Assembly (NCBI GenBank): GCA_031269735.1
Contig: JAISYS010000042.1
Span: 62,001-126,000 of the forward strand
Direction: 5' to 3'
Source: Candidatus Endomicrobiellum cubanum
Lineage (GTDB): Bacteria; Elusimicrobiota; Endomicrobiia; Endomicrobiales; Endomicrobiaceae
Length of the DNA: 64,000 bases
Numbering within the stretch: the first letter of the stretch is position 1; every line of letters begins with the position of its first letter. The position numbers and the translations under genes are program-made. The notes under the pieces were generated by a model. That model searched no databases and was not told where the DNA came from. It worked only from the letters and a program-made list of their open reading frames with translations. Shown in pieces: positions 16,841 to 58,145 of the stretch.

Positions 16841-18439
16841 TTAATACTCTAACTTTTGCAAAGGATATGGCGTTGCCGTATCATATACCCACTCAACAAT
16901 ATTACGTTTTTCTTGGTCAAATAGTACCCCTATTTTTATAATTGGGCATTCACCGACCATATACTGTTCCGCATAGCCTTTATTGTTTATTTGAGCTAAT
17001 GCTGTATCCGCGTCTTTTTTATTCAACTTAAACTCTATTATATAGCGCGTATCAGGCAAAGTTATTTCCAAATCTGAACGTCCTTTGTTGCTATACACTT
17101 CGACTGCTGCATGTTGCCCCATTAACGTAGCTATCACAAACACAATACTCTGATAATGTGCTTCCGCAGTAAACTTGCTTATTAAAATATACGGAATTGA
17201 AGCGAAAAATGACTGAAACCTGTGCATAAAACCATCTACATCCCTATTATGCAAATCCTGTACAAATTTTTCTGCATCAAAATCCTGCCGCTTAGTATTA
17301 GGTGTATAATAATTAAACAATTCTTGCGTAAATCCGTACCGTACTTCTGCATTTGGAAACCCTAATACATATTTCATAGTATATTTATTATTAATACATG
17401 TTTTTATCGTCAAGTATCCGCTTTGATAAAGCAAAGGCGTTACATTATCACTGCCAGCACGGTAATCAGTAAGCTCATCATCAGTCACAGTAATACCATC
17501 ATTGAATTCCACTAAATTAAAACTGGATTTGGCAAGCGACTTAACTAAAAATGTTGGAGTGCCTGTCCTAAACCAATAATTACGAAACTCTCTTATATCC
17601 AACGTATTTAATACACTGAATGGATTATATATACCACCTATTTTGCTACAAAAACTATAACCATCGTAGCGTGCTTTCATTTCGCCCATAACTTCTTCTA
17701 TATTCATACCTTTAGCTTGTGCTAACTCTAATAACTCCGGTTCAAAATTGTTGAATAATTCTTCGGCTGTTATACCACAAATATTAGCATATTTGTAGTT
17801 CATACTTATGTCCGCTAAATGATTCAAATCACTAAACACGCTAACTTGCGAAAACTTAGTTACTCCCGTCAAGAAAGTAAAACGCAAATATTCATCAGCA
17901 CTTTTTAGCGCACCATAAAAATATCTCAACTTTGCACGAAACAAATCATTCGTCTCTTCATCACCCAGTGTCTCTATTAGAGGCTTATCATACTCATCAA
18001 TTAATATAACTACTTTTTGACAAGCCTTTTTGTTAATATTGACAATAAGGTCAATAAATTGGGAAGAAGGTATCCCATCAGTATTATTTGGTAAACCCCA
18101 TTCATTCTCATATCTTTTTAACCTACTCATTAACCAGGCATTAAAAGTATCAATGGTAGAACAATCTGCACCTCCCATATCCAAATGAATAACAGGATAC
18201 GATTTCCATTCGTTTTCCAACTTCTCCATAGCTAATCCCTTGAAGAGCTCTCGTTTACCTTGAAAATATGCTTTTAATGTGGATACGAGCAAACTTTTCC
18301 CAAATCGACGCGGTCTGCCTAGAAAATATTGTTTACTCCCTGTAACCAATTTATAAACCAAATCAGTTTTGTCCACATAAACATAGCCACTAGTAATCAT
18401 ATCCTCGAAATCTTGAACTCCTATTGGTAATCTACGCAT
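16841..18439 (-). CDS. AAA ATPase with C-terminal PD-(D/E)XK nuclease domain (DUF1703-type)
   Basis: A member of the large family found in many gut and oral anaerobes: AAA-ATPase-like domain followed by a PD-(D/E)XK domain. MRRLPIGVQDFEDM is the typical start, followed by YVYVDKT. Walker A is GRPRRFGKSLL, Walker B LIDEYDKPLIE. The nuclease motif near the end is GRSDLEI followed by YIIEFKL, giving the D...E-x-K set. Both domains look intact. The biological role of the family is not settled. ATG chosen; the track start is a TTG eight codons earlier. The adjacent relic and the presence of a degenerate cousin at 56.7 kb suggest this copy was acquired more recently. Confidence 0.88.
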   Translation of the reverse strand: MRRLPIGVQDFEDMITSGYVYVDKTDLVYKLVTGSKQYFLGRPRRFGKSLLVSTLKAYFQGKRELFKGLAMEKLENEWKSYPVIHLDMGGADCSTIDTFNAWLMSRLKRYENEWGLPNNTDGIPSSQFIDLIVNINKKACQKVVILIDEYDKPLIETLGDEETNDLFRAKLRYFYGALKSADEYLRFTFLTGVTKFSQVSVFSDLNHLADISMNYKYANICGITAEELFNNFEPELLELAQAKGMNIEEVMGEMKARYDGYSFCSKIGGIYNPFSVLNTLDIREFRNYWFRTGTPTFLVKSLAKSSFNLVEFNDGITVTDDELTDYRAGSDNVTPLLYQSGYLTIKTCINNKYTMKYVLGFPNAEVRYGFTQELFNYYTPNTKRQDFDAEKFVQDLHNRDVDGFMHRFQSFFASIPYILISKFTAEAHYQSIVFVIATLMGQHAAVEVYSNKGRSDLEITLPDTRYIIEFKLNKKDADTALAQINNKGYAEQYMVGECPIIKIGVLFDQEKRNIVEWVYDTATPYPLQKLEY

Positions 18440-18472
18440 ACCCTTATTGCTCTCCTTCCTCAAAAATGTAAT

Positions 18473-20785: not shown

Positions 20786-21125
20786 AATTTTGCATAAATC
20801 CTACTATATCTTTTATAACGCTAGAATCATAAAATACAACCAACAAACATATTAAAACTACGAAAATTATAACTACATATGATATTACTCTAAAAATATC
20901 AACCTTTTTAACTTTTTCTGTAACATCTTCAAATAAACCAGTTATACGTTCTCCATCTAAATCTAAAGACTCAATTTTAGTGTTTACATAACTTTCAGTT
21001 TCTGAATCATATGCAGATACTGTAAATCCATCTCCATTTGTAATTAAAGTATACTGGTAATTTGAATCATATTTTTCCCCTAACAGTGTTCTAGCCAGCG
21101 CTGGTGACAACTGTTCCTTATACAT
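20763..21125 (-). CDS. Small C-terminally anchored membrane protein
   Basis: 120 residues from MYKEQLSPALA; AAGGGG lies 9 bases upstream and the start overlaps the helicase stop. A soluble, acidic N-terminal domain of about 70 residues is followed by one hydrophobic helix (VISYVVIIFVVLICLLVVFY) and a short tail. Function unknown; its position directly after the helicase gene does not itself show a link. Confidence 0.55.
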   Translation of the reverse strand: MYKEQLSPALARTLLGEKYDSNYQYTLITNGDGFTVSAYDSETESYVNTKIESLDLDGERITGLFEDVTEKVKKVDIFRVISYVVIIFVVLICLLVVFYDSSVIKDIVGFMQNYDFIPER

Positions 21126-23121
21126 TAACAACTTCCCCTTTAAAGAAAGATTCGAATGACTCTACATCCGAATATATAATTTTGTGTTGCTTGTATAATT
21201 TATCGTAAGATTCATACACATTCAAACCTGTAAATATTGAAGACAGACCCGCAGTTGAAGATATATACAGCTTTTCTCTGGCACGTGTACAAGCAACAAA
21301 AGCTAAAGACCTCTCGTTTCTTATTTCCCTTGCTTTTTCTATCGCACATCCTTTCTCTTCCATAGCATCTAATTTCTTTGAATTTGGAACTACTCCTTCG
21401 TCTGCACCTATTATATACACTTCATCTGCTTCCAAACCTTTTGCCGCATGAAAAGTGTAACACCTAACACCTCTTCTTACCATCTCACTTTCTCTTATTA
21501 CTTCCATCTTCAATGCTTCATCTTTAATGAATTTAATATATGATTTTTCTTGTGTAAGTTGTCTTACCAACTTAATGTAATAATCTGCCGAATAATCCAA
21601 AAAGTGTTCTCTACCCTCAACATATACTTGCTTGAATGTAGGCCATAGTAGATTAAATATTTCACTCAATTTTGAGTTCTTGAGTATTAAATCTCTAGCT
21701 TCTACTAATAAAGACATAGCAGTTGAGCCTACCTTTACGTCCCTAAACTGATAATTAACCTCAAATGGTGATTTACCAGTTTTACTACAAATCTTATACA
21801 AAGGATGATTATTTAGATTTCCATATACTCTGAATTCAGGAATTAAATACCTTAAATTTAGTATGTTTGATAATGTCGAAGGATTAACAGCGAACTCACA
21901 TAATGCACATAATTCTTTTATTAAAGGTATTAAATTTGCTTGCATATATTTATTTACACGGAATGGCAATCTCCTTACGAATAATTCTTCTACAACAGGT
22001 ATGATTGTAAAATTATTTCTAAATAAGAACAATATGGACTTTTTAAACACTCTTTGATTCTTGTGAAACTCTTCTTCTATGTTATCACAAATCTTCTTTA
22101 TATCAATATTAAGTAATAACTTCATATCTCCACCTGGCCCTGTACCTTTGAACTCTTGTTCATTCATCTCATTTGGTTTTATAATTTCTTTTGCATATGC
22201 AACAATCTCATTTTTACATCTAAACGATTGCGTCAAATTAATTTGCCTAGCTGTCGGGAAATACTTATAATACTGCTCTACTATTTCTTGGCAAGCGCCA
22301 TTAAAAGCATAAATTTGCTGTTTTATATCACCAATAGCTATAACATTGTCAGAAATTAGAGATATAACTCTTAATTGTAACAAAGATAAATCCTGAAATT
22401 CATCTACTACTAAAACCTTGCATTTTTCTTTCATTTGCGCTGATACTTCCGGATACCGTAACATTAATTCCAATGTATATAACAATATATCACTTAAAGC
22501 TATTGTTTCTACCAATTTACTATGTGTGTACAATAAACTGCGTATTCTTGTAAAATCAACATAACTTAATCTAGCTTTTTTGAAGTCATATTTTGATTCC
22601 ACATGCGCTTTGTCAAAAATTAATGAAGAATTTAATGAACGCACAGCATCTACTACATTCTTAACATTGTGTTTATCTATGTTTATACCCATTTCTAAGC
22701 TAGCCTCTAATAGCATATTAGCAGTAGACTCTATGTCATAATCTCCACCTATCTTAAGCGTATTCAAACCTAATAGCTTAAAATTATCTTTTAATATCTT
22801 TCCACATAATTTATGCAGAGTACTAAAGTTAATGGTAGAATGTACGCGTAACAATTTACAACTATCTTCATACCTATTTTTCAATTCTAACGTTGCTAAA
22901 TTTGTAAAAGATAGTGCATAAATATTCTTACCAGGAATCCGATGATATAATTCCGTCACTAATAATCCAACTGTCGCTGATGTAGTTTTACCGGTGCCAG
23001 GAAATGAGAACGAAATTAAAGGCGACGTGAAATCACTAACGAAATTTCTCTGCTCATCAGTAAGCTTTTGTTTTAACGTTACAGACATCATATCTATAAA
23101 GTTGGTAATAGAAATTCCCAC
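21118..23121 (-). CDS. UvrD/Rep-like superfamily 1 DNA helicase
   Basis: 667 residues with the SF1A helicase motifs in order: LTDEQRNFV (Q motif), FPGTGKTTSA (Walker A, about residue 40), VLVVDEFQDLS (Walker B, about 240), IGDIKQQIYAFNGA (motif III), SFRCKNEIV (motif IV), CYTFHAAKGLEADEVYI (motif V), and FVACTRAREKLYIS (motif VI). These enzymes unwind DNA 3' to 5' in repair, replication restart or plasmid replication. It is somewhat shorter than UvrD (about 720). It lies at the end of the recombination and repair gene run. Confidence 0.92.
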   Translation of the reverse strand: MGISITNFIDMMSVTLKQKLTDEQRNFVSDFTSPLISFSFPGTGKTTSATVGLLVTELYHRIPGKNIYALSFTNLATLELKNRYEDSCKLLRVHSTINFSTLHKLCGKILKDNFKLLGLNTLKIGGDYDIESTANMLLEASLEMGINIDKHNVKNVVDAVRSLNSSLIFDKAHVESKYDFKKARLSYVDFTRIRSLLYTHSKLVETIALSDILLYTLELMLRYPEVSAQMKEKCKVLVVDEFQDLSLLQLRVISLISDNVIAIGDIKQQIYAFNGACQEIVEQYYKYFPTARQINLTQSFRCKNEIVAYAKEIIKPNEMNEQEFKGTGPGGDMKLLLNIDIKKICDNIEEEFHKNQRVFKKSILFLFRNNFTIIPVVEELFVRRLPFRVNKYMQANLIPLIKELCALCEFAVNPSTLSNILNLRYLIPEFRVYGNLNNHPLYKICSKTGKSPFEVNYQFRDVKVGSTAMSLLVEARDLILKNSKLSEIFNLLWPTFKQVYVEGREHFLDYSADYYIKLVRQLTQEKSYIKFIKDEALKMEVIRESEMVRRGVRCYTFHAAKGLEADEVYIIGADEGVVPNSKKLDAMEEKGCAIEKAREIRNERSLAFVACTRAREKLYISSTAGLSSIFTGLNVYESYDKLYKQHKIIYSDVESFESFFKGEVVNV

Positions 23122-23915
23122 TAGCGTTGTCTCCTTTCCCCCAAGTGTTTAATGTAATCTATAATATTTCCTGCTACTAACTCCTTCAAATGGATATATG
23201 CAGCAATGGCATCCCCATAAACTTTGTCCCACCTTTTGTCTTTGTGTAACTCAATACGCCCAAAATGTGCTGGAATAACCTCATACGATTCAATAAAAGT
23301 ATCAAAAGTACAGTAGCCTCTAAAAGGCATATAAATAGTATCCCCTTCAAAACTTACATTAAGGGTAGTTCCATCTACTAATAAAATCCAATCTTTTTCA
23401 TCTTTGAATTCCTTTAACTTTAACCTTCTTGTGATAAAATTAAATAAATGATTACAGTACATATCATAATCTATTTGTACATTAGGGCGCATCATATTGA
23501 CTAATACCGAAGTTGGAATCAACAAAGATGTTATTTCATCAAATTCTATCTTTGGATTAAGATAAAATTCCAGTCCTTGCCTTTTTATTATATAAACTAC
23601 ATCAGTAGACAATGATGCTAAATAAACTGATAATAATTCGTTTACATTAGGAGCTCTCAACGGTACTCTTGATTCTTTATCTTTTAGTCTACGCATATTC
23701 TCTTTGAATATTTTATCTCTGTACGCATTTTCTGAATCATAATAATTAGTATCCTCTGTCTGAGCAATTCTTATAACATTAGCCACATCCATAGTTATTC
23801 TTGCATCAGCAAAGTCCACAGTTTTATACTCCTCAAGTAATTTAGCAACTTTCCCTGCAAAATTGATTGTTAAATACTTAGTGCCTACTAAATCTACTAA
23901 CTTAACTCCTGTCAT
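23121..23915 (-). CDS. Hypothetical protein in the repair gene run
   Basis: 264 residues, no recognised motif. The N-terminal half is helical; the C-terminal part is beta-rich (DGTTLNVSFEGDTIYMPFRG). Its stop shares a base with the helicase start. Context suggests DNA repair or replication, but only by neighbourhood. Confidence 0.55.
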   Translation of the reverse strand: MTGVKLVDLVGTKYLTINFAGKVAKLLEEYKTVDFADARITMDVANVIRIAQTEDTNYYDSENAYRDKIFKENMRRLKDKESRVPLRAPNVNELLSVYLASLSTDVVYIIKRQGLEFYLNPKIEFDEITSLLIPTSVLVNMMRPNVQIDYDMYCNHLFNFITRRLKLKEFKDEKDWILLVDGTTLNVSFEGDTIYMPFRGYCTFDTFIESYEVIPAHFGRIELHKDKRWDKVYGDAIAAYIHLKELVAGNIIDYIKHLGERRQR

Positions 23916-23922
23916 CTGCTTT

Positions 23923-24564
23923 TTATCCTTTCATAACGGTTGTTTTATTGTCCTCTATAAAGAAATTAAAACTCTCGCACACAGTGTTAGTAAAAACTTC
24001 AGGCTTTTGCTCGATTGAAATAATTTGCATAGACTCTCCCAACATACCTAAATACGTAGATAATACAGCAGACCTTTCAGGTGATAACTTAGCAAATATC
24101 TCATCGAGTATAAGTACTCGCATATACTGGGGATTAAGTTGCAAAAACACATTACGCATAAACATAGAAAGCACCGCTCGATATCCTGAGCCCTCCACTC
24201 TATCTAAACTCATCCTATCTGAAGTTTCAAACCATGCTTCTCCATCTTCCATTTTGAACCTAATATCCTGGGAAGATGCCGGAACGATATTCCCTACTGC
24301 AAGCAATACTTGCGCTATAGTGTATAAAGATTCCTTTTTCTTATCTCCTACATACTCCGTCAAATCCTCTATCATCTGTTTTAATTCTTTTTCCACAAAA
24401 GAAAATTTATCTAATATATCATTATATACTATAATGGCATCTTTAATCTTTTTTACTTTCTCCTTATTGTCTAAAGACTGTTTAATTTTAAGATTTGATT
24501 CAGTAACTACTCTTTCTAATCTCGCACAGACATCAAAATATCTGTATTTCGTCCCTGAATCCAT
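23923..24564 (-). CDS. Rad50/SbcC-like C-terminal ATPase half
   Basis: 213 residues that look like the C-terminal lobe of an SMC-type ATPase without its partner half. A coiled coil (about 20-80) leads to DRVEGSGYRAVLSMFMRN, which fits the ABC signature helix, followed by VLILDEIFAKLSPE (Walker B and D-loop) and then IISIEQKP (H-loop area, with Glu/Gln in place of the usual His). The N-terminal half with Walker A and zinc hook is encoded separately at 27.9-28.8 kb. Together with the SbcD-like nuclease they would form a split Mre11-Rad50 complex. The start overlaps the clamp gene by 49 bases, a long overlap, but no better start exists. Confidence 0.72.
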   Translation of the reverse strand: MDSGTKYRYFDVCARLERVVTESNLKIKQSLDNKEKVKKIKDAIIVYNDILDKFSFVEKELKQMIEDLTEYVGDKKKESLYTIAQVLLAVGNIVPASSQDIRFKMEDGEAWFETSDRMSLDRVEGSGYRAVLSMFMRNVFLQLNPQYMRVLILDEIFAKLSPERSAVLSTYLGMLGESMQIISIEQKPEVFTNTVCESFNFFIEDNKTTVMKG

Positions 24565-25520
24565 ACCTTATTATCATCCTTTCCTATTTTTACCTCTCCT
24601 GTATCAATAAACCCTAAAATCAAAATAATGTATTCTATGGGTATGTTCAGCATAAATACTATATCTCCCATATATCCAGAAACGTAGAAAGCTTTCAAAG
24701 TACCTCTTTCCGCTAAAATCTTAGTAACCCCTTCGCTATCTAAAGCTAAAGATACAATTCCATCTTTAACGGTATTGTTGAAGGCCTTTAGTCCATTTCT
24801 CAGTAAACCTATTTTCCAGTCAAACATCGCTATATTACGTGGCAATGCTTCTTCAAAGTCTGGTTTCTGCTTTTTCTTAGATAATGGTATCACTAATATA
24901 GTATCTTTGCTGTTTTTAGTAAAAATTAAGGCATCTTCTTCTGTATAACTGCCTGTTGGATTAAACCTTGCTATTCTTCGTATATTTTCTATAGTCAGAG
25001 TTGTATTTAGACTAACTCCTCTGTGACGTAACCAAATAGTAGAGAAATAAATATTAGCATAGTCCCCATCAAAATATACTTCAATATCAGTCTTAAATAA
25101 TTTAGCTATGCTACTTACATACCTTAATTTAGATTCCAAATTAATTAAGTTCATAGCATTAAACATACTAACTCTTTCTTTATCTACAGCATATGCGTAT
25201 AACAAAGAAGAAGCAGGTAGTAACAACACACCAAAATTACTAGATGAAATATTTACCGTATTATTAACTATCTCTATTTCAGCAAAGCCATCTGTTGGTA
25301 ATAAACTAGATACATCCATAAACATAACAGTAGCAGTGTCTGCTTCCTGCACATTCACAGTCATGCTATGTTGAAACAAAACACTTTGCTCTCCTATAAT
25401 ACGAAATATTCCATCTTCTACAGAAAAACATACAGCACTTGCTTTATCTCTACCTTTATACAAAAAAGCTATATAATCTAGCGCTGATTTAAGGGCTCTA
25501 TTATCAATAATAATTTTCAT
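24516..25520 (-). CDS. Probable DNA polymerase sliding clamp (DnaN-like)
   Basis: 334 residues, beta-rich, starting MKIIIDNRALKSALDYI, which resembles the opening strand and helix of a DnaN domain. The C-terminus NKVWIQGRNTDILMSVRD resembles the DnaN ending, where the last strand finishes in a Met-Pro-x-Arg type tail. Total length is slightly under DnaN (about 370). The presence of a DnaX-type loader in the same element makes a clamp expected. The similarity is weak, so this remains a fold-level assignment. Confidence 0.5.
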   Translation of the reverse strand: MKIIIDNRALKSALDYIAFLYKGRDKASAVCFSVEDGIFRIIGEQSVLFQHSMTVNVQEADTATVMFMDVSSLLPTDGFAEIEIVNNTVNISSSNFGVLLLPASSLLYAYAVDKERVSMFNAMNLINLESKLRYVSSIAKLFKTDIEVYFDGDYANIYFSTIWLRHRGVSLNTTLTIENIRRIARFNPTGSYTEEDALIFTKNSKDTILVIPLSKKKQKPDFEEALPRNIAMFDWKIGLLRNGLKAFNNTVKDGIVSLALDSEGVTKILAERGTLKAFYVSGYMGDIVFMLNIPIEYIILILGFIDTGEVKIGKDDNKVWIQGRNTDILMSVRD

Positions 25521-25992
25521 GCGATGTACCTAATAGTGGATGCCTAGCATTAAGTGTAATGTTTTTATATGATACTAATTTTGTAATTTCACAGTATAAA
25601 TCACTATTAAATATAACTATAGGGATTTCTTTTCCTATAGCAAAAGAAATCTCTTGTAGCATTCCTTCAGAAACCCTATCGCCGCATACATAAATAACAT
25701 CCGTAGTCTCCAGAAATAACCTGCCTATTTCTAAAGCAAAATTACGCTCATCTTCTCTTCCATCATTTAATAAAAGAGGTAAACAAGCATGCGTAGCTTT
25801 TGGTAACACATCCATATACATATAACAATAGTACATGTACAATTTAGCCATTTTCATATTCTTAAGAATATGTTTTACTGTTTCAGCTCTACATGGAGAA
25901 CAAATATACGCCTTGGCCCTATCCTCATTATAAGATTCTAACAATGCCACCTCTAATGTGTGTTCCCAATCAAAATCGAGTACCTTGTACAT
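25504..25992 (-). CDS. Nucleoside 2-deoxyribosyltransferase-like (DUF4406-type) protein
   Basis: 162 residues with a Rossmann-like pattern: AYICSPCRAETVKHILKN at the start resembles the 'yi..P......n...a' opening of the family. HACLPLLLNDG lies in the middle, and DVIYVCGDRVSEGMLQEISFA matches the strand and Ser-x-Gly-Met/Glu helix that carries the catalytic Glu. Members remodel nucleosides or act in nucleotide signalling and defence. Which reaction applies is not known. The stop overlaps the clamp gene start. Confidence 0.55.
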   Translation of the reverse strand: MYKVLDFDWEHTLEVALLESYNEDRAKAYICSPCRAETVKHILKNMKMAKLYMYYCYMYMDVLPKATHACLPLLLNDGREDERNFALEIGRLFLETTDVIYVCGDRVSEGMLQEISFAIGKEIPIVIFNSDLYCEITKLVSYKNITLNARHPLLGTSHENYY

Positions 25993-26303
25993 TATTGCAC
26001 GCCCCTTAGCAGTTGGAGAGCTTCTTCATTTAATTTATCCGCTAACAAATCTAATTTTTTCTGATATATGTCTATAACTTCTTTCTCCATTAAATACTGC
26101 TCTTTATTAAATGGCTTAATAAATAAAGATGGAAGTAAAGATTTAACATTATCTCCTTTTAGTGGCTCTATATTGTACTTTATAAATAACTCAGGGTCTA
26201 TTTCTCTTGAATTCTTTATTAAAGTATCTATCCATTGGGATATTAATAACCTTTTTTCTATAAATTCTTTTTGTCTTAACTCAATTAAATCTTTTACGTT
26301 CAT
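25992..26303 (-). CDS. Small hypothetical helical protein
   Basis: 103 residues, highly helical with heptad-like spacing (ELRQKEFIEKRLLISQWIDTL, EVIDIYQKKLDLLADKLNEE). No family recognised. It lies between the SbcD-like nuclease and the deoxyribosyltransferase-like gene, sharing a base with each side, so may be part of the complex encoded around it. Confidence 0.55.
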   Translation of the reverse strand: MNVKDLIELRQKEFIEKRLLISQWIDTLIKNSREIDPELFIKYNIEPLKGDNVKSLLPSLFIKPFNKEQYLMEKEVIDIYQKKLDLLADKLNEEALQLLRGVQ

Positions 26304-27308
26304 CTAAATCCCCTTGTTTAACAATTTAACACAATCGAATAAATTTACCTCTGATTGATTAACAGCTTTTATTAATTCTAACCTTTCAGCTGTATAATCC
26401 TTTGCGCTTAAAAAATCAAATAACGTCAGAGATTTTGGAGATTCAACCTTTACAATAGGTGTTTCCTGTTCATAGACTGTAACAGCTTCTCTTTTATTAT
26501 AAAATTTCAATAACTCTGCATAAGTCGAAAACTTGAACAGGTTACAAGTGACATTACAAGCGTCAGAAATTTCGACAACAGGTAATTTTACAACTGTATG
26601 CAAATACCTGCTAGCATTTTTTGTTATACACATAGACCCTGGAATAATCAAAGGAACTCGTTTATTGCCTATTGTAAGATGTTCTACTCCTACATCTACA
26701 TGAATATGTCCTATAATAGCTAAATCTATATTTTCATATATAGATTTCAAATATAAAGAATCTGAATTACCAAAATACCCAGCTAACGCTCTAACATTTG
26801 ATGGTACAACTACATCATCATGATAAACCCCTATATGAAACGTTGTATCATCATCTCTTTGTATCTTATACTCTTTATTATCCTTAGAGTAATGGAACAA
26901 AGAAATTTGTACTGTCCCTATCTTAAATGTAACAGGAGTTTTTATAACTTGCGTAAACGCTACTATATCCTTAATTGGTTTATATTTATCATGCGGTTGG
27001 ATAAGATACATTTCGGGATTGGCATCTCTCTCTAAGAAGAAATGATTTCCAATACACATATAAAAATTACCATTTAATACTTTATTAAATTCTTCATCGA
27101 AATTTCTATCGCTATGACTCCTCCCAACATTCCTATATCCCTTATCATACCAATCTCCAGTAGAAATCATATGAGTAATTTTTTGGTTATCAATAAAGGA
27201 TAATAAATCTTGTTGAACTGCATCTAAAGCTTTAGTATAATTTCCTATAGATGTAAAATCAATATCTCTTTTATGCATATCCGTAACGAATAAAATCTTG
27301 GCTAACAT
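26304..27308 (-). CDS. SbcD/Mre11-like calcineurin-type phosphoesterase
   Basis: 334 residues with the five metal-binding motifs of the Mre11/SbcD family: ILFVTDMHKRD at the N-terminus, ISTGDWYDKG, CIGNHFF, a middle His near HIGVYHDD, and IIGHIHVD. Mre11-type nucleases trim DNA ends together with a Rad50-type ATPase. The two Rad50 halves flank it at 27.9-28.8 and 23.9-24.6 kb. The first metal motif has DxH, as in the family. The C-terminal region has no recognised capping domain. Confidence 0.85.
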   Translation of the reverse strand: MLAKILFVTDMHKRDIDFTSIGNYTKALDAVQQDLLSFIDNQKITHMISTGDWYDKGYRNVGRSHSDRNFDEEFNKVLNGNFYMCIGNHFFLERDANPEMYLIQPHDKYKPIKDIVAFTQVIKTPVTFKIGTVQISLFHYSKDNKEYKIQRDDDTTFHIGVYHDDVVVPSNVRALAGYFGNSDSLYLKSIYENIDLAIIGHIHVDVGVEHLTIGNKRVPLIIPGSMCITKNASRYLHTVVKLPVVEISDACNVTCNLFKFSTYAELLKFYNKREAVTVYEQETPIVKVESPKSLTLFDFLSAKDYTAERLELIKAVNQSEVNLFDCVKLLNKGI

Positions 27309-27310
27309 GA

Positions 27311-27928
27311 TTACTTCCTATTTATCAACTTCTTTAATACCTCACAACTTCCCTCGCATATAACTACTCTTTGCGCTTTTACATTAACAGCCCATGAATG
27401 TCTGTTATCTGTACAATAAATATAATTATTGTCAACAAATTTGGGCTCTCCTTTTCCAAAACTTTTTGCATTCTTAAATTTAGTTATATAAACCCATCCA
27501 TTATCTACTCTAAATGGTACTCTATCTCCTGTAACATTAATATCAACAGTAAAATCCAGAACCAAACCGAATCCAACTTCTAATTGTTTTAGAATGGCAT
27601 AAGCATCCAGCATTTTCTTTAAGCTAATCATCTTCACAAAATGTAAAATTATACGGTCACCTAATAAAATTAAAGTGCATTCTTTTATGCCCAATGTCAT
27701 AAGAATTTCTTCAATTTCATTAGCTACAACCTTAGCTTTACCATTGAAATCATAGTTTTCATATTGAGGAATGCTACTCTCTTTAATAACTTTAATATAC
27801 TCTGCATAAATTATTTTGAAAGTCTCAGCATCTCCAGTATCAACATTATCCGGATGAAACTTCTTAGCTAATTCATGCCATTTATTACGTATATCCTGTT
27901 CTGTAATACACCTATCAAAGTTACCCAT
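27311..27928 (-). CDS. J-domain (DnaJ-like) protein
   Basis: 205 residues starting MGNFDRCITEQDIRNKW; GAGGAG lies 10 bases before this ATG, whereas the track start 17 codons earlier has no support. The first 60 residues form a J domain with the HPD triad in AKKFHPDNVDTGDAE, so it should stimulate an Hsp70 ATPase, presumably the host's. The remaining 140 residues are an unassigned beta-rich domain, without Gly/Phe or zinc regions. It sits between the Rad50-like N-half and the SbcD-like nuclease; a chaperone step in assembling that split complex is inference. Confidence 0.82.
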   Translation of the reverse strand: MGNFDRCITEQDIRNKWHELAKKFHPDNVDTGDAETFKIIYAEYIKVIKESSIPQYENYDFNGKAKVVANEIEEILMTLGIKECTLILLGDRIILHFVKMISLKKMLDAYAILKQLEVGFGLVLDFTVDINVTGDRVPFRVDNGWVYITKFKNAKSFGKGEPKFVDNNYIYCTDNRHSWAVNVKAQRVVICEGSCEVLKKLINRK

Positions 27929-28814
27929 GTTTATGTTGCTCCTCTTCAATAAAATCTCTTCCACACACAGGACACACACCCTGTTGCAGTTTAATTAAAT
28001 CATCAACTATAGGGATGATGTCTGGAAATTTAACAAACATTTTATTATATATTCTAGGATATACCAATGTTGGCATACATCCTGTTTTCTCAATCATCCT
28101 AATCTCAGGTACCGCTTCAATTTCACACAAAGGTCTAGTTTCACATAATCGTAAATTCTTTAACAAGAAAGCAACCTTATCTCGTTTATCAGCCTCCTCT
28201 TCCACATTACATATAACTATAGCATCTAATATAGCTTCACTTGACAACTTTTGTCCATTTGTCTCTTTTTTTCTTCGCTTCACATCTAAATGAAGTCTTT
28301 CTAACTCTACAATAGTATTTTCTGCATATTTATCAATAGCAGCAGATTCTAATATGCTATAATTCGTGGCATATTTAGTTTCTGTGAATAAAAACTTGTC
28401 ATCATCTTTGTGAATATTTACAGACACATCGTGCTTATCGTGATAATGAAAGCCAAACTCTCTTATCAGCATATAAATAGATTTATCAGACAAATAACGC
28501 CTAGTAATAGAAGAATCTTGTCTTTTTAACTCTACAAAGGTTTGAGCCGCTTCTTTGTGTATATGAATTAATAACTCCATACCGTCCCATTTTACACACT
28601 GAAGTTCCCCGAACATACAACCTCTTCGAATTAAAGAAACTCTATTACTCGGTCGTGACATATCATTACTAATAGCATCCCATAGCCCTTTAACTAGTAC
28701 AGACTTTCCATTTGAATTATCTCCATATAACCGTATAACACCAAATTCCGGAAAATCTAATACAGTATCTACATGGGATTGAATATTCGTTAATTTTAAT
28801 TGTTTTATACTCAT
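27921..28814 (-). CDS. Rad50/SbcC-like N-terminal ATPase half with zinc hook
   Basis: 297 residues. The opening SIKQLKLTNIQSHVDTVLDF and RLYGDNSNGKSVLVKGL (Walker A, about residue 35) is the standard start of Rad50/SbcC proteins. The C-terminus carries VCPVCGRDF, the CxxC zinc hook that joins two Rad50 arms, after only a short coiled coil. The chain then stops, and the second half with Walker B is a separate gene. This gives a compact split Rad50. The C-terminal hook would therefore be at the free end of this half rather than mid-chain. Confidence 0.82.
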   Translation of the reverse strand: MSIKQLKLTNIQSHVDTVLDFPEFGVIRLYGDNSNGKSVLVKGLWDAISNDMSRPSNRVSLIRRGCMFGELQCVKWDGMELLIHIHKEAAQTFVELKRQDSSITRRYLSDKSIYMLIREFGFHYHDKHDVSVNIHKDDDKFLFTETKYATNYSILESAAIDKYAENTIVELERLHLDVKRRKKETNGQKLSSEAILDAIVICNVEEEADKRDKVAFLLKNLRLCETRPLCEIEAVPEIRMIEKTGCMPTLVYPRIYNKMFVKFPDIIPIVDDLIKLQQGVCPVCGRDFIEEEQHKHG

Positions 28815-36794: not shown

Positions 36795-38498
36795 TCACAC
36801 ATGCTCTTTCTTTTCTTTTAACTTGAATTTACCAACAGTTTCATCCAATTCAGTAGATTGTCCTGATAATTCCTCAGAAGAGGCAGCTAGCTCTTGCGCA
36901 GTTGCACTGTTTTGCTGTACAACCTGTGATACTTGTTCAATACCAACATTTACATCGATTATTGAAGTATTCTGCTTTACTGAAGACTCTTGTAATTTTT
37001 TAAGTTGTTCAGCACTCTTTTTAGTTGCTTCCACAACTACACGTAACCCATCACTAACTTTACTTACTAAATCATTTCCTTCTTTGACACTAATTAAATT
37101 ATTCTCAGTTAAAAATGCTGTCTCTTTTGAAGCTTCCGCAGATTTTGACGCTAAACTTCTAACCTCATCTGCTACTACAGCAAAACCTTTACCATGTTGA
37201 CCTGCTCTAGCAGCCTCTACTGCTGCATTTAACGCTAAGATATTAGTTTGAAAAGCTATATCATCTATCACTTTTGTAGTCTTAGAAATATTCTTAGACT
37301 TATCATCTATAACATGCATAGCCTCTAACATTTTATTCATTTGCTCCATAACAGTATTTATAATCTGTTCAGCGCTAATAACCTCTTCAAAAGCCTCAGT
37401 TGCCACAACTGCATTCTCTTTAGCCATTTCTTCTATCTCCTGCATAACAGATTGAATTTCTTCAATTGATGCAGACTGTTCTGAGGCTCCTTGTGCCAAA
37501 TTTTGAGAACCTGCAGATATCTGTTGGGAGCCAGTAGCTACTTGCCAGGCAGCCTCATTAATATTAACTAAGGCACCATTTAAGTCACTCTGCATTTTCT
37601 GCAAAGAATTACCTAAAACATCTTCTGACCCCAACGATACCACATCGAATACAAAGTCACCGTTAGAAACCCTAACCAAATATTCACCGATTTCACGTAT
37701 ACGCTCAATCATATGTCTTAAACTGACCATGCTTACACCGAACTCATCTTTATATGCTGAATATCTGATAATATTTTTCCTTAACTCAGTATCAGTTTCC
37801 AATTTACCAGTATCAGCTACTTGGTCTAATAAAGCTTTAATGTAACTTATAGGTCTAACAATCGACCTAGCTAAAAATAACACCAAAAAGATTGAAATTG
37901 CTACTACTACAATAGTAACTACTACTAAGATTGTACTGTGTGTTTTATACAACTTAGCATTATCCTCATTCTGAACTTTAGCTATATCTAAATTTAAGTT
38001 AAAAGAAGCATCTAAGTAATCCGATAAACCAGAACCAGCACTGTCTACTTCTAAAATAGCATCTGCTATTGCAACCTCATCTCTGCTTTCGATAGCATAT
38101 AAAGCGGCTTCTTTTATACTATTAAAAGCAGTATAATCTCTTTCCAAATTTCCATAAATAGATAGCTCTTCCGAATTTGACAAAAGTTCATAATACCTCT
38201 TTAGGGCATCCTCGAAATCTGCTTCTTTTTCTCGCAAACTTTCAATTTCTCCTAATGCAAATTCATTGTCTACATCGTAAAAAAGTGCTATATTATTGAT
38301 ACAAATACGTTGCACTCCTAATCTATCGTACATTATAGACAGATAATCTAAGGACACCACATTCTCTGCATACATCACATTGTTCTCAGTTTGTAATTCA
38401 TGCATACTGTATATACCAATTGCACTAATTACTATACTCAACACCATTATGATTATGAAACTTACTAATAACTTTGTTCTAACTTTGAAATTTCTCAT
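36795..38498 (-). CDS. Methyl-accepting chemotaxis protein
   Basis: 567 residues. TM1 at about 10-30, a helical periplasmic-type sensor (four-helix bundle, about 35-185), TM2 at about 187-207 ([20 protein letters not shown]), a HAMP domain, then the cytoplasmic signalling hairpin with the conserved tip [19 protein letters not shown] and [10 protein letters not shown]. It would feed the host CheA/CheW array, so the host is presumably motile or at least chemosensory. Start [11 protein letters not shown] chosen over the track ATG five codons upstream. It overlaps the RNase HI gene by 20 bases. No other chemotaxis gene is nearby, so the element would rewire host behaviour alone. Confidence 0.93.
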
Positions 38499-38925
38499 TA
38501 AAATCTCTTTCATGTAAACTTAATAGTACAGAACTAGTAATATCACAAAACTTATTTGGATTATGTTCGTTCTGATGTGCTTCGATATACTTACAAGTAA
38601 TATTTCTACCCTTTATTAACTCAAGTATCAATTTCCAAATATCATAATATTTTACATTCATATTTGACATTTTACTTGAATTAAATCTGTTAAACTGTGT
38701 TACTAATACTTTTGCATCACTATATACAATCAAATCTTGAACATCCCATTTACTGACAGCATGATTTATAGCTTGCCAAATACCTAACAATTCTCCTTCT
38801 GTTAATGATTTCACATGCTCATATTCTCCAGTTATCATATCTAAATAATAAGAGTCTGTAATAAATAACGTAGTTGCGACTGCCAACCCATTTTTAATCC
38901 CACTGTCAGTATAAGCATATATCAT
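38479..38925 (-). CDS. RNase HI-like ribonuclease
   Basis: 148 residues with the full RNase H set: AYTDSG (first Asp), [13 protein letters not shown] (Glu), [11 protein letters not shown] (second Asp), and [16 protein letters not shown] (His and final Asp). It should cut RNA in RNA/DNA hybrids, such as Okazaki primers or R-loops. It is the only one of the three RNase H-fold proteins here whose active site looks complete. The stop lies within the start region of the chemotaxis receptor gene. Confidence 0.85.
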
Positions 38926-39314: not shown

Positions 39315-40583
39315 CTATTCCGTTAGTTTCCTACCAATGTGCAAATCAGAACCTATTGGTAACCAACCCTCTACCTCATATGCTACACACTCCTTTAATA
39401 ATCCAGCATAATAATCAACTTTATCCTCCGGTACATAAAAACAACCCTCATCATGTTTGTAATAATTTATCTTGCCTTCACTGCCTAAAACCTTTTTAGC
39501 ATTATACACAGAGAAACACATCAACTCTGAAGCAGTAGTCTGTATTGGATTATTTACACCACACCTAACTAAATGTTCGAACCAACCTGTACCATTCTTT
39601 TTATATTTATTTGTCTCTTCAGGTTTTACAGGTGTACCAAATATACCATAAAATGTATCCGCTCCACTTTTTACTCGCTCTCTAACGTTACGTTCCAATG
39701 CTAACCTTAAAGGATGCCTTACTATCTTTTCGGTGTATGAGGGCCCTAATTCATAATCTATACTAGCTAAATTACTAGACCCATAATTTCCAGCCAATGC
39801 TAATGTCTTTAATTTATCTCTCTTATTTTTCACCTCCTCGTTTATATCAAATTTAGCAGCATCTTTACCTAATGTAATGTAATGTAACAAACCATAATAA
39901 GCATCATCATACATTTTTATTAAATGTATTATGTCTTCATCTCTGATAAAAGCTGAATACGTAATTCTAGGTTCTATTTGACTAGAATCACACGAAATCA
40001 TAGTATAGCCTTCTGGGGCTGTATAAATATCTAAAAGACTACTCGCTACATTTTGTAAACTTGGAGAGCTAGCTGAAATCCTAGATGTGGCTAACAGCGA
40101 CCATAATGGATGTGCAATAACCATTCTATGCTTATCGCACGATTCTGCTACACTAACTGGTAATTCTTTATATTGACCGAGATATGAAACAAGTTGAGAC
40201 CATTCTTTCATTTTTTGGAACAGTCTAAGAAACTCTTTGGCATCTTCATTAATAGATACATCAGCTATTAAAGATGCTACTATCTCTTTTTCTATCGAAA
40301 ATCTCTGCCCACTGTCATCAGCTTGCAACTTATATGAGGGTACATTAAATCTCTGCACTAAAAGTTGCATAATTCTATTTCTATCCGTTATTTTCAAATA
40401 TGGGTCGCCTGTTAAAGAAATCCATTGCTTTCTATTTTTATGAATGTTTAAGAGCAAATCTGCTTCATGCCCTAAAATAAGATATAAATCGAAAAAGCAA
40501 CCAAACGTATCAGTTTCTTGTTGTAAGATACTTCTAACTTCAGCGGGGGTTAAGGGTAACTTTTTATCTGTAATTTTAATCAT
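39315..40583 (-). CDS. Second family A DNA polymerase, short form without exonuclease domain
   Basis: 422 residues that cover mainly the palm and fingers. Motif A is SCDSSQIEPRITY (D-x-SQIE-x-R), motif B KRDKLKTLALAGNYGSS (R, K and YG preserved, the usual Phe replaced), motif C KHDEGCFYVP (HDE). SRISASSPSLQNVAS, the 'tGRlss..PnlQn' segment, lies just before motif A. No 3'-5' or 5'-3' nuclease domain. It differs clearly from the 1060-residue polymerase at 58.8-62.0 kb. Roles such as primer extension, repair or lesion bypass are guesses. Its stop is 13 bases before the next gene. Confidence 0.85.
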   Translation of the reverse strand: MIKITDKKLPLTPAEVRSILQQETDTFGCFFDLYLILGHEADLLLNIHKNRKQWISLTGDPYLKITDRNRIMQLLVQRFNVPSYKLQADDSGQRFSIEKEIVASLIADVSINEDAKEFLRLFQKMKEWSQLVSYLGQYKELPVSVAESCDKHRMVIAHPLWSLLATSRISASSPSLQNVASSLLDIYTAPEGYTMISCDSSQIEPRITYSAFIRDEDIIHLIKMYDDAYYGLLHYITLGKDAAKFDINEEVKNKRDKLKTLALAGNYGSSNLASIDYELGPSYTEKIVRHPLRLALERNVRERVKSGADTFYGIFGTPVKPEETNKYKKNGTGWFEHLVRCGVNNPIQTTASELMCFSVYNAKKVLGSEGKINYYKHDEGCFYVPEDKVDYYAGLLKECVAYEVEGWLPIGSDLHIGRKLTE

Positions 40584-43315
40584 ACTGTCACCTCATAATT
40601 ATATCCAGACTGGTCACATACAACATATTTACGCCCTCTAATCATTTTTACAGGATAACCTCTTTCTTCAAAAGATGCTATTTCAGTATAAGGTAATTCT
40701 CCAAATTCTGATGTATAAAATGTTTTACCCCCATTAGTTATAGTTATTAACTTATCTATATTTACATTTTGAGGTAAACTAGGAATAACCTCAGAGAAGA
40801 ATAAATCATCAGCATCAAATCCTTTGAATTGAATAAAGCCAGAAACTTCTCTATTCCATATTTCTAAATCTACAACGCTCTTGAAATCTTCATTACTAAC
40901 TAATCTAAACTCCCCTATTCTAAATGAGTGTGTTGTAGGCTCTATAGTATCAACATTATTATCATTTTGCTTTAATCCTTCATATAAATAATGCAGGGGG
41001 TGAGTTACCGCTATAAACTCTTTATCTTTCGGATAATACTTCAACTCTTCATACGCTTTTGTAACATAATATAACAACGTTGTTTTCTCTGCGTAACTAT
41101 CCCCTATTTGACGATAAATTAAACTTTTAGCCCCTACTAAATAAGTCCAATACACAAAATTTTGAGATATATCTCCCCTTTTAATCAAGGTGTCTTGTAA
41201 AGGCGTAGGCTCCCACACAGCAGCTAAAGATGTCTCCGGAATCTGATGCATGCCATGCGGTATGATATACTCAGGCGTAACAGTCGCATTTACATAAAAT
41301 CTACGCCATTCCTCGTTACCTGGATACATATTGGTACTTGCTAATGATACAATATCCTCTACATACTCCGTAACAAGCCTGTTCATATTCTGTACGACAG
41401 ATACTTCCTCACTTATTGTACCGCCACCCATCTCATCCGGAAATTTAGCATATCCTTTCGTTATAATGTCAAAAAGGGCTGTGTAAGCCCATATCTTGGA
41501 TGAGTTAATATAAGCTTGTTGTAATCTATTTCCTACAACGTTAAGTTCAACTTCTTCTATAAATCTAGCTTTATATTTTTCTATAATAGTAGCCACTGCA
41601 TCCCGTTTAACTAGCATAAACGAACAAGCAATATGCCGTTTAGCTTTAATCCCACCTAACTCCCTTGCTATCTTAGTAATATATATAATCTCTTGAGCTT
41701 GCTGAGCTTGCTGTATACGGTATAAGGATAAATCCTTGTAATATCCGTTAACTTTATTATCCAATTTTTTAAGTTTAATCCTTAAAAATTTATCTTCTAA
41801 ATTAAAAGATAAAATTTCTTGATTTTCCTTTATATCTCTAACAGTACGATAAATATCACTAGCAGAAATCTTAAATATTCTATTAACAGCCAGCAATGCT
41901 TTATAATACTGACTACTATCCACCATTAAATCTACTTTCTGCCCTTCATCTACATTATCAATATTAATATCTCCATTAAGAATGGCTTCAATGTCCTCTA
42001 GCTTCTCGGTCTTCTCTCCAGAAAAATCATCTCCTCTAAGGTAAGCGTTAATATCATTATCATCAATTGTAGATAAATTTCCATCTACCCCGTCTGATAA
42101 AACTTCTTTTGTTTTTGGTTTCCATGTATTATTTATCTTAGACAAGGCCACGTAAGGCGAACACCCACTTCTAGTTAAAGCTAGGTAACTAGAAACCTCA
42201 TAATTAGATTCCATTTTACTAAGTATTAAATTCGTGCATGCTTTTAATAATAAATCATTTTTAAGCAGTCTCCAATTTGAAATATTCCAATATTGAGGAT
42301 GCACAACAAAGCTAGCTATATCCCCTGTTATATAAAAGGAAATCACTTCTTGCTTGCCAATATATAATACTGTACTGGAATACTGTATAAAACAAGCATC
42401 AGTTTGAATGTTATAAACTTCTTGCGTACTGACCTTACGAATGTCTATAACTGATACTTCATCTTCCCCTAAAGACATACGAATATCATTCAAAATGGCA
42501 TCACTCACAACCGGACGATAACCTTTACCCTTTAATGTCTCTTCTAGTAAAAACTCATTATGCTTAGTTATAAAACACAAATCTGTTTCATACGCTCTAA
42601 GAGTGTCTAACTGTTCTGGATTTACAATTGGTGCACCTAAATAAGTATTTCTTTCCTTTTTCTCTTTAGATATATATCTTAAGTTTAACCCGTCAATACC
42701 CCAACTAAAATAGAAATCAACTAGCTCTAACGGACTAAAATTCTCACTCAATCCTTTACTTAAACACCAGGCTACTAATTTCTTAAATTTATCAAAAGAC
42801 ATTCTTCTTCTATCAGCAATAATAGAAAAATATTCGGCATATTCAGGATTACTAAATTCAGAATATTCAAATAAGGCATTTGGATGCACAAAATAATTCA
42901 AAGGTAAATAATCATCTGCTAATCTTACTGTTTTTAGTGTGTTCAAATACTTTATAAAATCTTCTCTTTGAAAAATTGTGTACTTTGCCTCAGGGAATTT
43001 CATATAAATATCTTCTGCAGGTGTAATTCTACTTTGCAATTCTTCACGAGTTAATTCTCTGCCAATTTTATCCCACATTCTTTGCTCAACCTCTACACTC
43101 GGATTCCAAACTACAGAAGGTAAGTCACTTAACTTAACTCCATTTTTTCTAAAGTCATAAGGGAAATTACAAAGCTTCCAACCGCTGTTTATTAATTTAT
43201 CACATATAACATCGTTAATCAATGATTCTAAAAATAAGGGATAAATGTTTCCATCTTCTTCTAATTCTACTGCAAAAACTTTACTATTCCTAATAAAACA
43301 CTTATTAATATTCAT
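40580..43315 (-). CDS. Very large hypothetical protein (911 residues)
   Basis: No domain that I recognise. It is soluble, with mixed alpha/beta composition, an acidic Asp-rich stretch around residues 410-480 (DDNDINAYLRGDDF, GDINIDNVDEG) that looks like a linker, and a helical region with QQAQQAQ near 545. It ends in a beta-rich part. It lies between the WXG100-like genes plus hairpin and the short polymerase gene, whose start overlaps its stop (4 bases). A large structural or replication-complex protein is possible; no evidence favours either. Confidence 0.6.
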   Translation of the reverse strand: MNINKCFIRNSKVFAVELEEDGNIYPLFLESLINDVICDKLINSGWKLCNFPYDFRKNGVKLSDLPSVVWNPSVEVEQRMWDKIGRELTREELQSRITPAEDIYMKFPEAKYTIFQREDFIKYLNTLKTVRLADDYLPLNYFVHPNALFEYSEFSNPEYAEYFSIIADRRRMSFDKFKKLVAWCLSKGLSENFSPLELVDFYFSWGIDGLNLRYISKEKKERNTYLGAPIVNPEQLDTLRAYETDLCFITKHNEFLLEETLKGKGYRPVVSDAILNDIRMSLGEDEVSVIDIRKVSTQEVYNIQTDACFIQYSSTVLYIGKQEVISFYITGDIASFVVHPQYWNISNWRLLKNDLLLKACTNLILSKMESNYEVSSYLALTRSGCSPYVALSKINNTWKPKTKEVLSDGVDGNLSTIDDNDINAYLRGDDFSGEKTEKLEDIEAILNGDINIDNVDEGQKVDLMVDSSQYYKALLAVNRIFKISASDIYRTVRDIKENQEILSFNLEDKFLRIKLKKLDNKVNGYYKDLSLYRIQQAQQAQEIIYITKIARELGGIKAKRHIACSFMLVKRDAVATIIEKYKARFIEEVELNVVGNRLQQAYINSSKIWAYTALFDIITKGYAKFPDEMGGGTISEEVSVVQNMNRLVTEYVEDIVSLASTNMYPGNEEWRRFYVNATVTPEYIIPHGMHQIPETSLAAVWEPTPLQDTLIKRGDISQNFVYWTYLVGAKSLIYRQIGDSYAEKTTLLYYVTKAYEELKYYPKDKEFIAVTHPLHYLYEGLKQNDNNVDTIEPTTHSFRIGEFRLVSNEDFKSVVDLEIWNREVSGFIQFKGFDADDLFFSEVIPSLPQNVNIDKLITITNGGKTFYTSEFGELPYTEIASFEERGYPVKMIRGRKYVVCDQSGYNYEVTV

Positions 43316-56272: not shown

Positions 56273-56739
56273 ATAAACATATCCTTAAAAGTTATAATAT
56301 TTTGTACCAATATACCTAGCTCAATCGTATCAGGCTCTCCTTTTAACAACTCAGCTAATTTTGCTCTGTTTACTGTAAAATATGGGCCAAATTTATTATA
56401 TACATCATTAAACTTTTCTTCTAGTGAAGTCATCCGATATACTGGAGTAAATGCTCCAGGAAAACTAAATACAGGAAATAAAGAATACGTATCTTCTTGT
56501 TTATCATATAAACAAGACACAAATCTTCGTTTACTTATATTTAATACATAATCCAAAGTTGAATATAGATGTAAAGATTGAAAAATTTTCTCGTCACGCA
56601 CAATTTTTCCTTCATGCATCATATCCACTCCATTACTACAACTTAATCTTACTAAATCTGGGTGACTTTGTCTTTTGAATGTGTACTGCGTCTTATCTAA
56701 AGTAGAACATTCAAGCACTTTTGCAATAAGATGCAACAT
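56269..56739 (-). CDS. Hypothetical protein
   Basis: 156 residues, alpha/beta, no recognised motif. Stop overlaps the ligase-like gene, start shares a base with the pseudo-ATPase stop. Unknown. Confidence 0.5.
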   Translation of the reverse strand: MLHLIAKVLECSTLDKTQYTFKRQSHPDLVRLSCSNGVDMMHEGKIVRDEKIFQSLHLYSTLDYVLNISKRRFVSCLYDKQEDTYSLFPVFSFPGAFTPVYRMTSLEEKFNDVYNKFGPYFTVNRAKLAELLKGEPDTIELGILVQNIITFKDMFI

Positions 56740-58145
56740 TAAACCCGCCTACCCCCTCCCGTTGCTGTACTTATATTATAATCAAAAGACGATATACGTC
56801 TTCTTTCCTCATCAAGAATCATATCTATATAAACATACGGTTTATCTGTGTATACTACTTCAAAATCGTTAGACCTTTCATGTTGTAATAAAGCTTGAGT
56901 TACTACAAAATTTATAAACTGTAGTCTTATCACAATTAAAGTCGTACCTTCATCGTAGTATACTTCTACACCTTGTGTTAGATTAGCCATCACATACAAT
57001 GTCATCTTTATTAACTTTTTATTTATCTTACGTGATAAACTATCGTAGAACTTATCTAAATCGCTTTTGAATGACAGCACATTACTCTCAAATAATTGTC
57101 TAAATAAATTCGGACTGTTCCTTAACTCTCCCCAATCATACATAAACTCGCTACATAAACGTTTAGCGCAATAAGCATCTACAAAATCAAATTTACCCCT
57201 CCTCATAGTAAAAAATCCTAATTTATATAAAACAGAAGTTTGCCCTATCTTATTAGGCAAATCTGTGAACACAATACCATTATTTCTTATTATATACCTA
57301 AATACATATTCCATTGTATCACTGTACACATAGTTAATAGGGTATTTTCCATCTTTATAACACTGCGCAACGATACTGATTGGATACATTTGCTCACCTT
57401 GTGCAACAAAATTATAAGTCCCGACTTCGTCTAAAAAATACGCTATTTGTGGACTGACATCAGCCTTTGCAACTCCCAATAACGTATTATATTTTACATC
57501 TACGGATAAATCCTTTACCCCTGCTGGTCTCTTGTTAGATACCCCACAACCCACGAAAAATGCAAATTCTATCTCTTTTTTACAATTACCTATTAGGGTT
57601 GAATAAAACCCTAACAATTCCTCTGCAACACCCTCAAATACTCGCAAACTTAAAACATCCATAATCGGTTTATCATAAAAATCAAATAAAAATACAATTT
57701 TAATTCCAGTTTCTATATATTTTCTTTTTATATTACTAATTATATGATGTAGTAACTCTTGTCTTGATGAAACTTTACACGTAAGTAATCCAACTCTAGT
57801 GAATTCTGGTTCCAAAATTGTTTTATACATTTTTCTTTTTAGGTCATAAGTAGCCTCATAATCAAAACCTACACGAATTTTGGGTCTGGTGTATAAAGAG
57901 TAAGAAGAAAAATCTATCATGTATACATCATAGGATTTAAGAGACGCAACTTCGCTTTCTATATCAGTTCCTTCAAAACTACTAACATTACCTAAAAAGT
58001 ATTCCCTAAACATACTAATTAAAGTTGTATATCCAAACCTAACTGGCCTATTAAATACACACCAAGTATTTTCTTTTATCATCTCCAGCATTAATCTAGT
58101 TCTATCTATAAAAATACCACTAGTTCCAAATTTACCATTATTCAT
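56739..58145 (-). CDS. Degenerate paralogue of the AAA/PD-(D/E)XK family (pseudo-ATPase)
   Basis: 468 residues that align by pattern with the intact member at 16.8-18.4 kb. GIFIDRTRLMLEMI matches YVYVDKTDLVYKLV, NRPVRFGYTTLIS matches GRPRRFGKSLLVS, and VFLFDFYDKPIMD matches ILIDEYDKPLIE. The Walker A Lys is Tyr and the Walker B Glu is Phe, so ATP hydrolysis should be lost. The C-terminal nuclease signature is also gone. The frame is undamaged and well placed in the operon, so it has probably been kept for a new, non-enzymatic role rather than being a pseudogene. Confidence 0.75.
   Translation of the reverse strand: MNNGKFGTSGIFIDRTRLMLEMIKENTWCVFNRPVRFGYTTLISMFREYFLGNVSSFEGTDIESEVASLKSYDVYMIDFSSYSLYTRPKIRVGFDYEATYDLKRKMYKTILEPEFTRVGLLTCKVSSRQELLHHIISNIKRKYIETGIKIVFLFDFYDKPIMDVLSLRVFEGVAEELLGFYSTLIGNCKKEIEFAFFVGCGVSNKRPAGVKDLSVDVKYNTLLGVAKADVSPQIAYFLDEVGTYNFVAQGEQMYPISIVAQCYKDGKYPINYVYSDTMEYVFRYIIRNNGIVFTDLPNKIGQTSVLYKLGFFTMRRGKFDFVDAYCAKRLCSEFMYDWGELRNSPNLFRQLFESNVLSFKSDLDKFYDSLSRKINKKLIKMTLYVMANLTQGVEVYYDEGTTLIVIRLQFINFVVTQALLQHERSNDFEVVYTDKPYVYIDMILDEERRRISSFDYNISTATGGGRRV

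Follow-up and report, generated by a model that had tools for sequence, protein, structure and literature searches.

A Rad50/SbcC ATPase possibly encoded as two half-genes around an Mre11-like nuclease on a ~156-kb element

The window examined here is a stretch of 64,000 nucleotides (positions 62001–126000) of the 155,790-bp contig JAISYS010000042.1, which is part of the assembly of Candidatus Endomicrobiellum cubanum (GCA_031269735.1). At window positions 23923 to 28814 the two lobes of a Rad50/SbcC-like ATPase appear to be encoded by two separate genes, here called the N half and the C half, both of which belong to one tight gene run with an Mre11-like nuclease. All of the open reading frames (ORFs) in this stretch are on the minus strand and transcription is leftward, in the order N half, J-domain protein, nuclease, 103-amino acid protein, DUF7768 protein, 334-amino acid protein, C half, 264-amino acid protein and UvrD; neighbouring genes of the run abut or overlap. 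Coordinates are those of the window unless another part of the contig is named.

The N half (27921–28814; 297 amino acids) and the C half (23923–24564; 213 amino acids) are separated by 3,357 bp, measured from the stop of the former to the start of the latter, and five coding genes lie within this interval. The first encodes a J-domain protein of ~205 amino acids (27311–27928) that has the HPD motif and matches PF00226 with an E-value of 1.2e-4, under the family cut-off. Next is a calcineurin-type nuclease of the Mre11/SbcD kind (26304–27308; 334 amino acids), which matches PF00149 (E = 1.9e-9), retains all of the metal-site motifs—DMH, GDWYD, GNH, FH and GHIH—and is the best of 711 segments of the element against a hidden Markov model (HMM) of phage Mre11 proteins (E = 5e-4). 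It is followed by a 103-amino acid protein with no function assigned (25992–26303; a weak phrog_265 match, E = 0.02, and coding-like codon usage), and by a 162-amino acid protein (25504–25992) that is DUF7768 or nucleoside 2-deoxyribosyltransferase-like (PF24963, E = 2.5e-19; phrog_355, E = 1.3e-8). The last of the five, a 334-amino acid protein with no family assigned (24516–25520), overlaps the C half by 49 nt. Beyond the C half the run continues with a 264-amino acid protein without a convincing family match (23121–23915) and a UvrD-type helicase of 667 amino acids (21118–23121; PF00580, E = 2.8e-35), the last gene considered. This layout bears out the original prediction, made from the sequence alone, of a Rad50 divided into two genes 3.4 kb apart around an SbcD-like nuclease and a J-domain protein, with a deoxyribosyltransferase-like protein also between them. 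The 334-amino acid protein had been called a probable clamp; searches of Pfam, NCBIfam and the sequences of the PDB returned no match to it and lend that assignment no support.

The N half carries a Rad50 N-lobe, a Walker A motif (GDNSNGKSV), a short coil and a CPVCG hook, such that Walker A and the CxxC hook are on one polypeptide, as had been predicted. It matches PF13476 (AAA_23) with an E-value of 6.9e-6 and 27.3 bits, narrowly above the cut-off of 27, and the archaeal Rad50 model NF041034 with an E-value of 7.7e-7; the zinc hook family PF04423 matches residues 279–293 weakly (E = 0.0064). Using an HMM of the N-terminal part of SbcC, built on sequences from viral contigs and phages (74 SbcC proteins), the N half outscores all others of the element's 711 open segments (E = 4e-6), and with hhalign it ranks first of 155 element proteins, at 95%. 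By its sequence, then, it is clear as a Rad50 N-lobe. The CPVCG motif occupies residues 281–285 and is followed by 13 residues and the C-terminus, in agreement with the prediction that the hook would be near a free end; in the alignment of the 74 viral SbcC proteins, the positions of Cys281 and Cys284 are Cys without exception (100%). A helical stretch without proline (~154–223) is succeeded by six prolines across residues 228–268 and then by the hook, from which we read that the coil does not continue unbroken as far as the hook, in contrast to the usual Rad50 arms.

The C half consists of a coil (~3–72), a Walker B motif LILDE with the catalytic Glu (150–155), a Rad50-type C-lobe and a terminal beta hairpin; the coils of the two halves are of similar length, ~70 residues each. 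Matches of the C half to families in three profile libraries are weak—phrog_77 SbcC (E = 0.013), RecN (E = 0.076) and SMC_N (E = 0.1)—and all lie within residues 149–207, on the C-lobe part of the profiles. We therefore ranked it against the rest of the proteins of the element. In a comparison with seven phage SbcC C-lobes, scored as z relative to shuffled sequences, the C half is first of 168 element sequences, with a mean z of 3.24; the next has 1.62, the background of all element sequences is 0.21 ± 0.51 (standard deviation), and the reversed C half scores ~0.75. With hhalign it is first of 155 element proteins at 53%, the next being at 15%, and its alignment to SbcC C-lobes places the coil, Walker B and the following helix in the correct register. 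Both rankings thus place the C half ahead of every other protein of the element as a candidate C-lobe.

A structural model of the C half was obtained using AlphaFold2 with 60 viral C-lobes aligned. The mean pLDDT (predicted local distance difference test) score is 66, and block means from residue 131 to the end are 73–93; the modelled order from that point is signature helix, Walker B strand, helix, strand and terminal hairpin. The top five PDB matches in Foldseek (9a9j_B, 1xex_B, 3qkr_B, 1f2t_B and 1ii8_B; E-values from 1e-4 to 3e-4) are all C-lobe chains of Pyrococcus furiosus Rad50 or of its ATP-bound head. This match supports the identity of the C half and does not prove it, since the SbcC alignment that was used favours that fold. 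These results bear on the suggestion that the two genes encode unrelated proteins, one a short Rad50-like N-lobe protein with a role of its own and the other a coiled-coil protein in which a motif resembling Walker B has arisen by chance. Weak scores of the C half in every profile search, together with a signature that is not canonical, are what such a pair would lead one to expect. The first rank in both tests, the correct register and the fold match to Rad50 C-lobes argue otherwise, as does the gene run that the C half shares with the N half and the nuclease; moreover, a lone N-lobe cannot make an ABC (ATP-binding cassette) head. We consider this explanation improbable.

Could the two halves be one continuous Rad50 gene, concealed by an error of sequencing, assembly or gene calling? 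Some phage records do contain SbcC in adjacent pieces that resemble sequencing frameshifts, but here five coding genes across 3.36 kb stand between the halves. The stop of the N half overlaps the likely start of the J-domain gene (ATGGGTAA), whose Shine-Dalgarno site (GAAGAGGAG) is encoded within the last codons of the hook tail. That gene probably starts at the ATG at 27928, giving 205 amino acids, because the listed GTG start (ORF from 27979) is inside the hook codons. The frame of the C half is closed by a stop one codon ahead of its ATG, upstream of which is AGGAAAGG, and neither half can be extended so as to take in the other. An antisense ORF over the C half (23948–24610) is preferred by a greedy longest-ORF caller; its codon usage scores −0.27 bits per codon, compared with 0.28 for the C half and 0.13–0.44 for the training genes. 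Coding-like codon usage is found in both halves and throughout the stretch, and not in the antisense ORF. In addition, an identical repeat, at least 50 bp long, is present at the two ends of the contig, which is therefore probably circular. A frameshift or mis-called genes are unlikely in view of the stops, the Shine-Dalgarno sites and the codon usage, and an artefact hiding a single Rad50 gene is very improbable indeed; sequence error and rearrangement, named as possible refutations of the original prediction, are both unlikely.

Each half supplies what the other is without. We favour the reading that the locus encodes an Mre11-Rad50-type nuclease complex in which Rad50 is made of two polypeptides, and give it a probability of roughly 0.6. 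In such a complex the N half, with the Walker A lobe, ascending coil and hook, and the C half, with the descending coil and Walker B lobe, would form one ABC head, with contacts between the lobes and along a short paired coil. A pair of these heads would come together on a dimer of the Mre11-like nuclease and bind it, and the assembled halves would hydrolyse ATP; the hook may still pair through zinc. The T4 proteins gp46/gp47 process DNA ends for replication and recombination of that phage, and the complex proposed here would do the same in the recombination and replication of the element itself. Assembly may be aided by chaperones, given the J-domain gene between the halves and an Hsp70 gene elsewhere on the element. 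A fuller version of the proposal, which we put forward tentatively as possible and somewhat short of probable, is that Rad50 occurs here naturally as two subunits, divided at the zinc hook. Its arm would then not be a continuous hairpin, and the hook, carried on an extension that contains prolines, would lie close to a free C-terminus; the two subunits would work with an Mre11-type nuclease and perhaps be assembled by means of the J-domain protein and Hsp70.

Several observations weigh against a two-chain Rad50 at this locus. The original prediction had placed both the ABC signature and Walker B on the second polypeptide; Walker B (LILDE) is there, and the signature is degenerate, SGGE aligning near RVEGSGYR. 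The Asp of the D-loop is replaced by Ser (KLSPE in place of LD), the His of the H-loop is replaced by Gln (SIEQKPE in place of SH), and the Gln of the Q-loop is probably replaced by His or Lys, the register being uncertain. HMM E-values of the C half within the element (0.08–0.2) are not significant on their own, its AlphaFold2 prediction without an alignment failed (pLDDT 36), and the good model depended on the SbcC alignment. Searches of phages, plasmids, viral and genome contigs and kin genomes found no relative that would show the split to be kept by selection.

With the signature, D-loop and H-loop altered, and probably the Q-loop as well, ATP hydrolysis may be weak or lost, and to judge from these motifs the split ATPase may be slow or otherwise altered. 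They make a decayed or repurposed complex the main rival: the halves would derive from Rad50 without forming a working ATPase, and would either serve the nuclease as a partner, whether structural or ATP-binding, or be in the course of being lost. The part following the hook is also short, at 13 + 213 residues, compared with a median of 308 and a minimum of 253 in the 74 single-chain viral SbcC proteins. Walker A, Walker B with its catalytic Glu, the CxxC hook and the nuclease motifs are nevertheless all kept, and in both genes the frame and the start site are intact and the codon usage is coding-like. On balance we regard decay or repurposing as unlikely, if less so than a pair of unrelated proteins, and retain the two-polypeptide Mre11-Rad50 complex as the preferred reading.

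The new Rad50/SbcC arrangement rests on one contig. No relatives of the two halves and the nuclease were found by tblastn in phages and plasmids—for the halves, not even at an E-value of 10 in phages—and none were found in scans of viral and genome contigs or in genomes kin to the bin that includes this contig. The UvrD and RpoC-like proteins of the element have no close relative in viral contigs, and its TraG-like ATPase has none in kin genomes. A scan with an RpoC motif returned jumbo phages, cellular RpoC proteins and chance matches; rpoC matches in two records labelled as plasmids, from C. difficile and B. subtilis, sit in chromosomal stretches and were set aside.

Nearly all of the genes of the contig are on the minus strand. 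To the right of the window it encodes RNA polymerase beta'-like (1109 amino acids; L006:6206–9535) and beta-like (1220 amino acids; L006:10645–14307) proteins; the polymerase subunits are ~27–30% identical to cellular RpoC and include the string VDYSARAVI, which also occurs in jumbo phage RNA polymerases. The Hsp70 (437 amino acids; L006:374–1687; PF00012, E = 1e-62) is in the same part of the contig, so that the element codes for an Hsp70 as well as a J-domain protein. Also encoded are a family A DNA polymerase, a clamp-loader-like ATPase, a DnaG-like primase, an FtsK-like ATPase and the UvrD helicase, together with TraG- and T2SSE-like ATPases that are weak matches. One ATPase, besides matching TraG, weakly matches a terminase (E = 3e-4), and no clear capsid gene is present among the element proteins scanned. 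The element may be a plasmid, a conjugative element or phage-like.

The host of the element is uncertain, because its tetranucleotide correlation with five other contigs of the bin is low (0.53–0.74, compared with 0.84–0.94 among those five). The bin yielded neither MCR nor bacterial 16S when searched for them, and the idea that it might be archaeal was given up once its other contigs had been read. A protein with cell-wall-binding repeats (PF04122; L003:10178–12220, to the left of the window) adds to the doubt, as it fits poorly with the bin; such repeats are commoner in Gram-positive bacteria. The genus of the bin remains a possible host, in that a PF09820 (AAA-ATPase-like) protein at 16841–18463 is 36–41% identical to proteins in genomes of that genus. 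There are several PF09820 proteins on the element, including those at 56739–58145 and L003:4131–6428, the latter of which is 72% identical to its next neighbour. A methyl-accepting chemotaxis receptor is encoded at 36795–38513 (PF00015, E = 9e-38), and four paralogous ORFs of ~260 amino acids starting PTNDLLFKKML are found towards the contig's right-hand end. A second family A DNA polymerase (39315–40583; 422 amino acids) directly follows a 911-amino acid protein without a family match (40580–43315), and these are possibly one polymerase in two genes.

Known systems offer both parallels and differences. Phage SbcCD systems (T4 gp46/gp47, the T5-like D13/D12, the SPO1- and Twort-like SbcC, and phrog_77) likewise encode a Rad50-like ABC ATPase that has a CxxC hook, close to the gene for an Mre11-like nuclease, and their carriers, as the element does, have replication genes of their own. 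Their ATPase is one chain, whereas that of the element is encoded by two genes 3.36 kb apart and has an altered signature, D-loop and H-loop. Eighty viral SbcC loci were fetched with an alignment of phage SbcC, and in all 79 that could be assessed both lobes are in one ORF, the remaining locus running off the end of its contig; this accords with the statement in the original prediction that the halves of known Rad50 proteins are one chain. Apparent natural splits in phage 38, AhSzq-1 and MET_P1-88 were rejected, the pieces being adjacent and having the look of sequencing frameshifts. In the crystals of the P. furiosus Rad50 head (1f2t, 1ii8 and 1xex) the N-lobe and C-lobe are also separate polypeptides, the N-lobe chain of 1f2t_A having 149 residues, and a two-chain head is therefore physically sound. 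That head was engineered from a natural single chain and is without a hook, whereas in the element the separation is natural and the hook is on the N half.

An unusual architecture of this complex in mobile elements is not without parallel: Mre11/Rad50 fusion proteins occur in Mimivirus, plasmids and phages, and those of a Bacillus phage and Anaerostipes are without one ATPase segment (PMC3175470). Those cases are fusions, whereas this would be a fission into two complementary half-ATPase genes. That a core enzyme of a large element can be divided among separate genes is already known from jumbo phages, whose RNA polymerase and DNA polymerase III subunits are split, with some parts far apart (PMC7824862); that survey concerns other enzymes and treats SbcC as a single ABC ATPase. 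A natural split of Rad50 was not found in the literature searched, which excluded many subscription papers.

If the proposal is correct, Rad50 would join the core enzymes known to be encoded in pieces by large mobile elements. The split would be a naturally occurring test of the need for a single chain in the Rad50 arm: a Rad50 cut at the hook in nature would mean that no covalent link through the apex is required, and the locus would provide a ready-made two-chain system in which to separate the functions of head, arm and hook.

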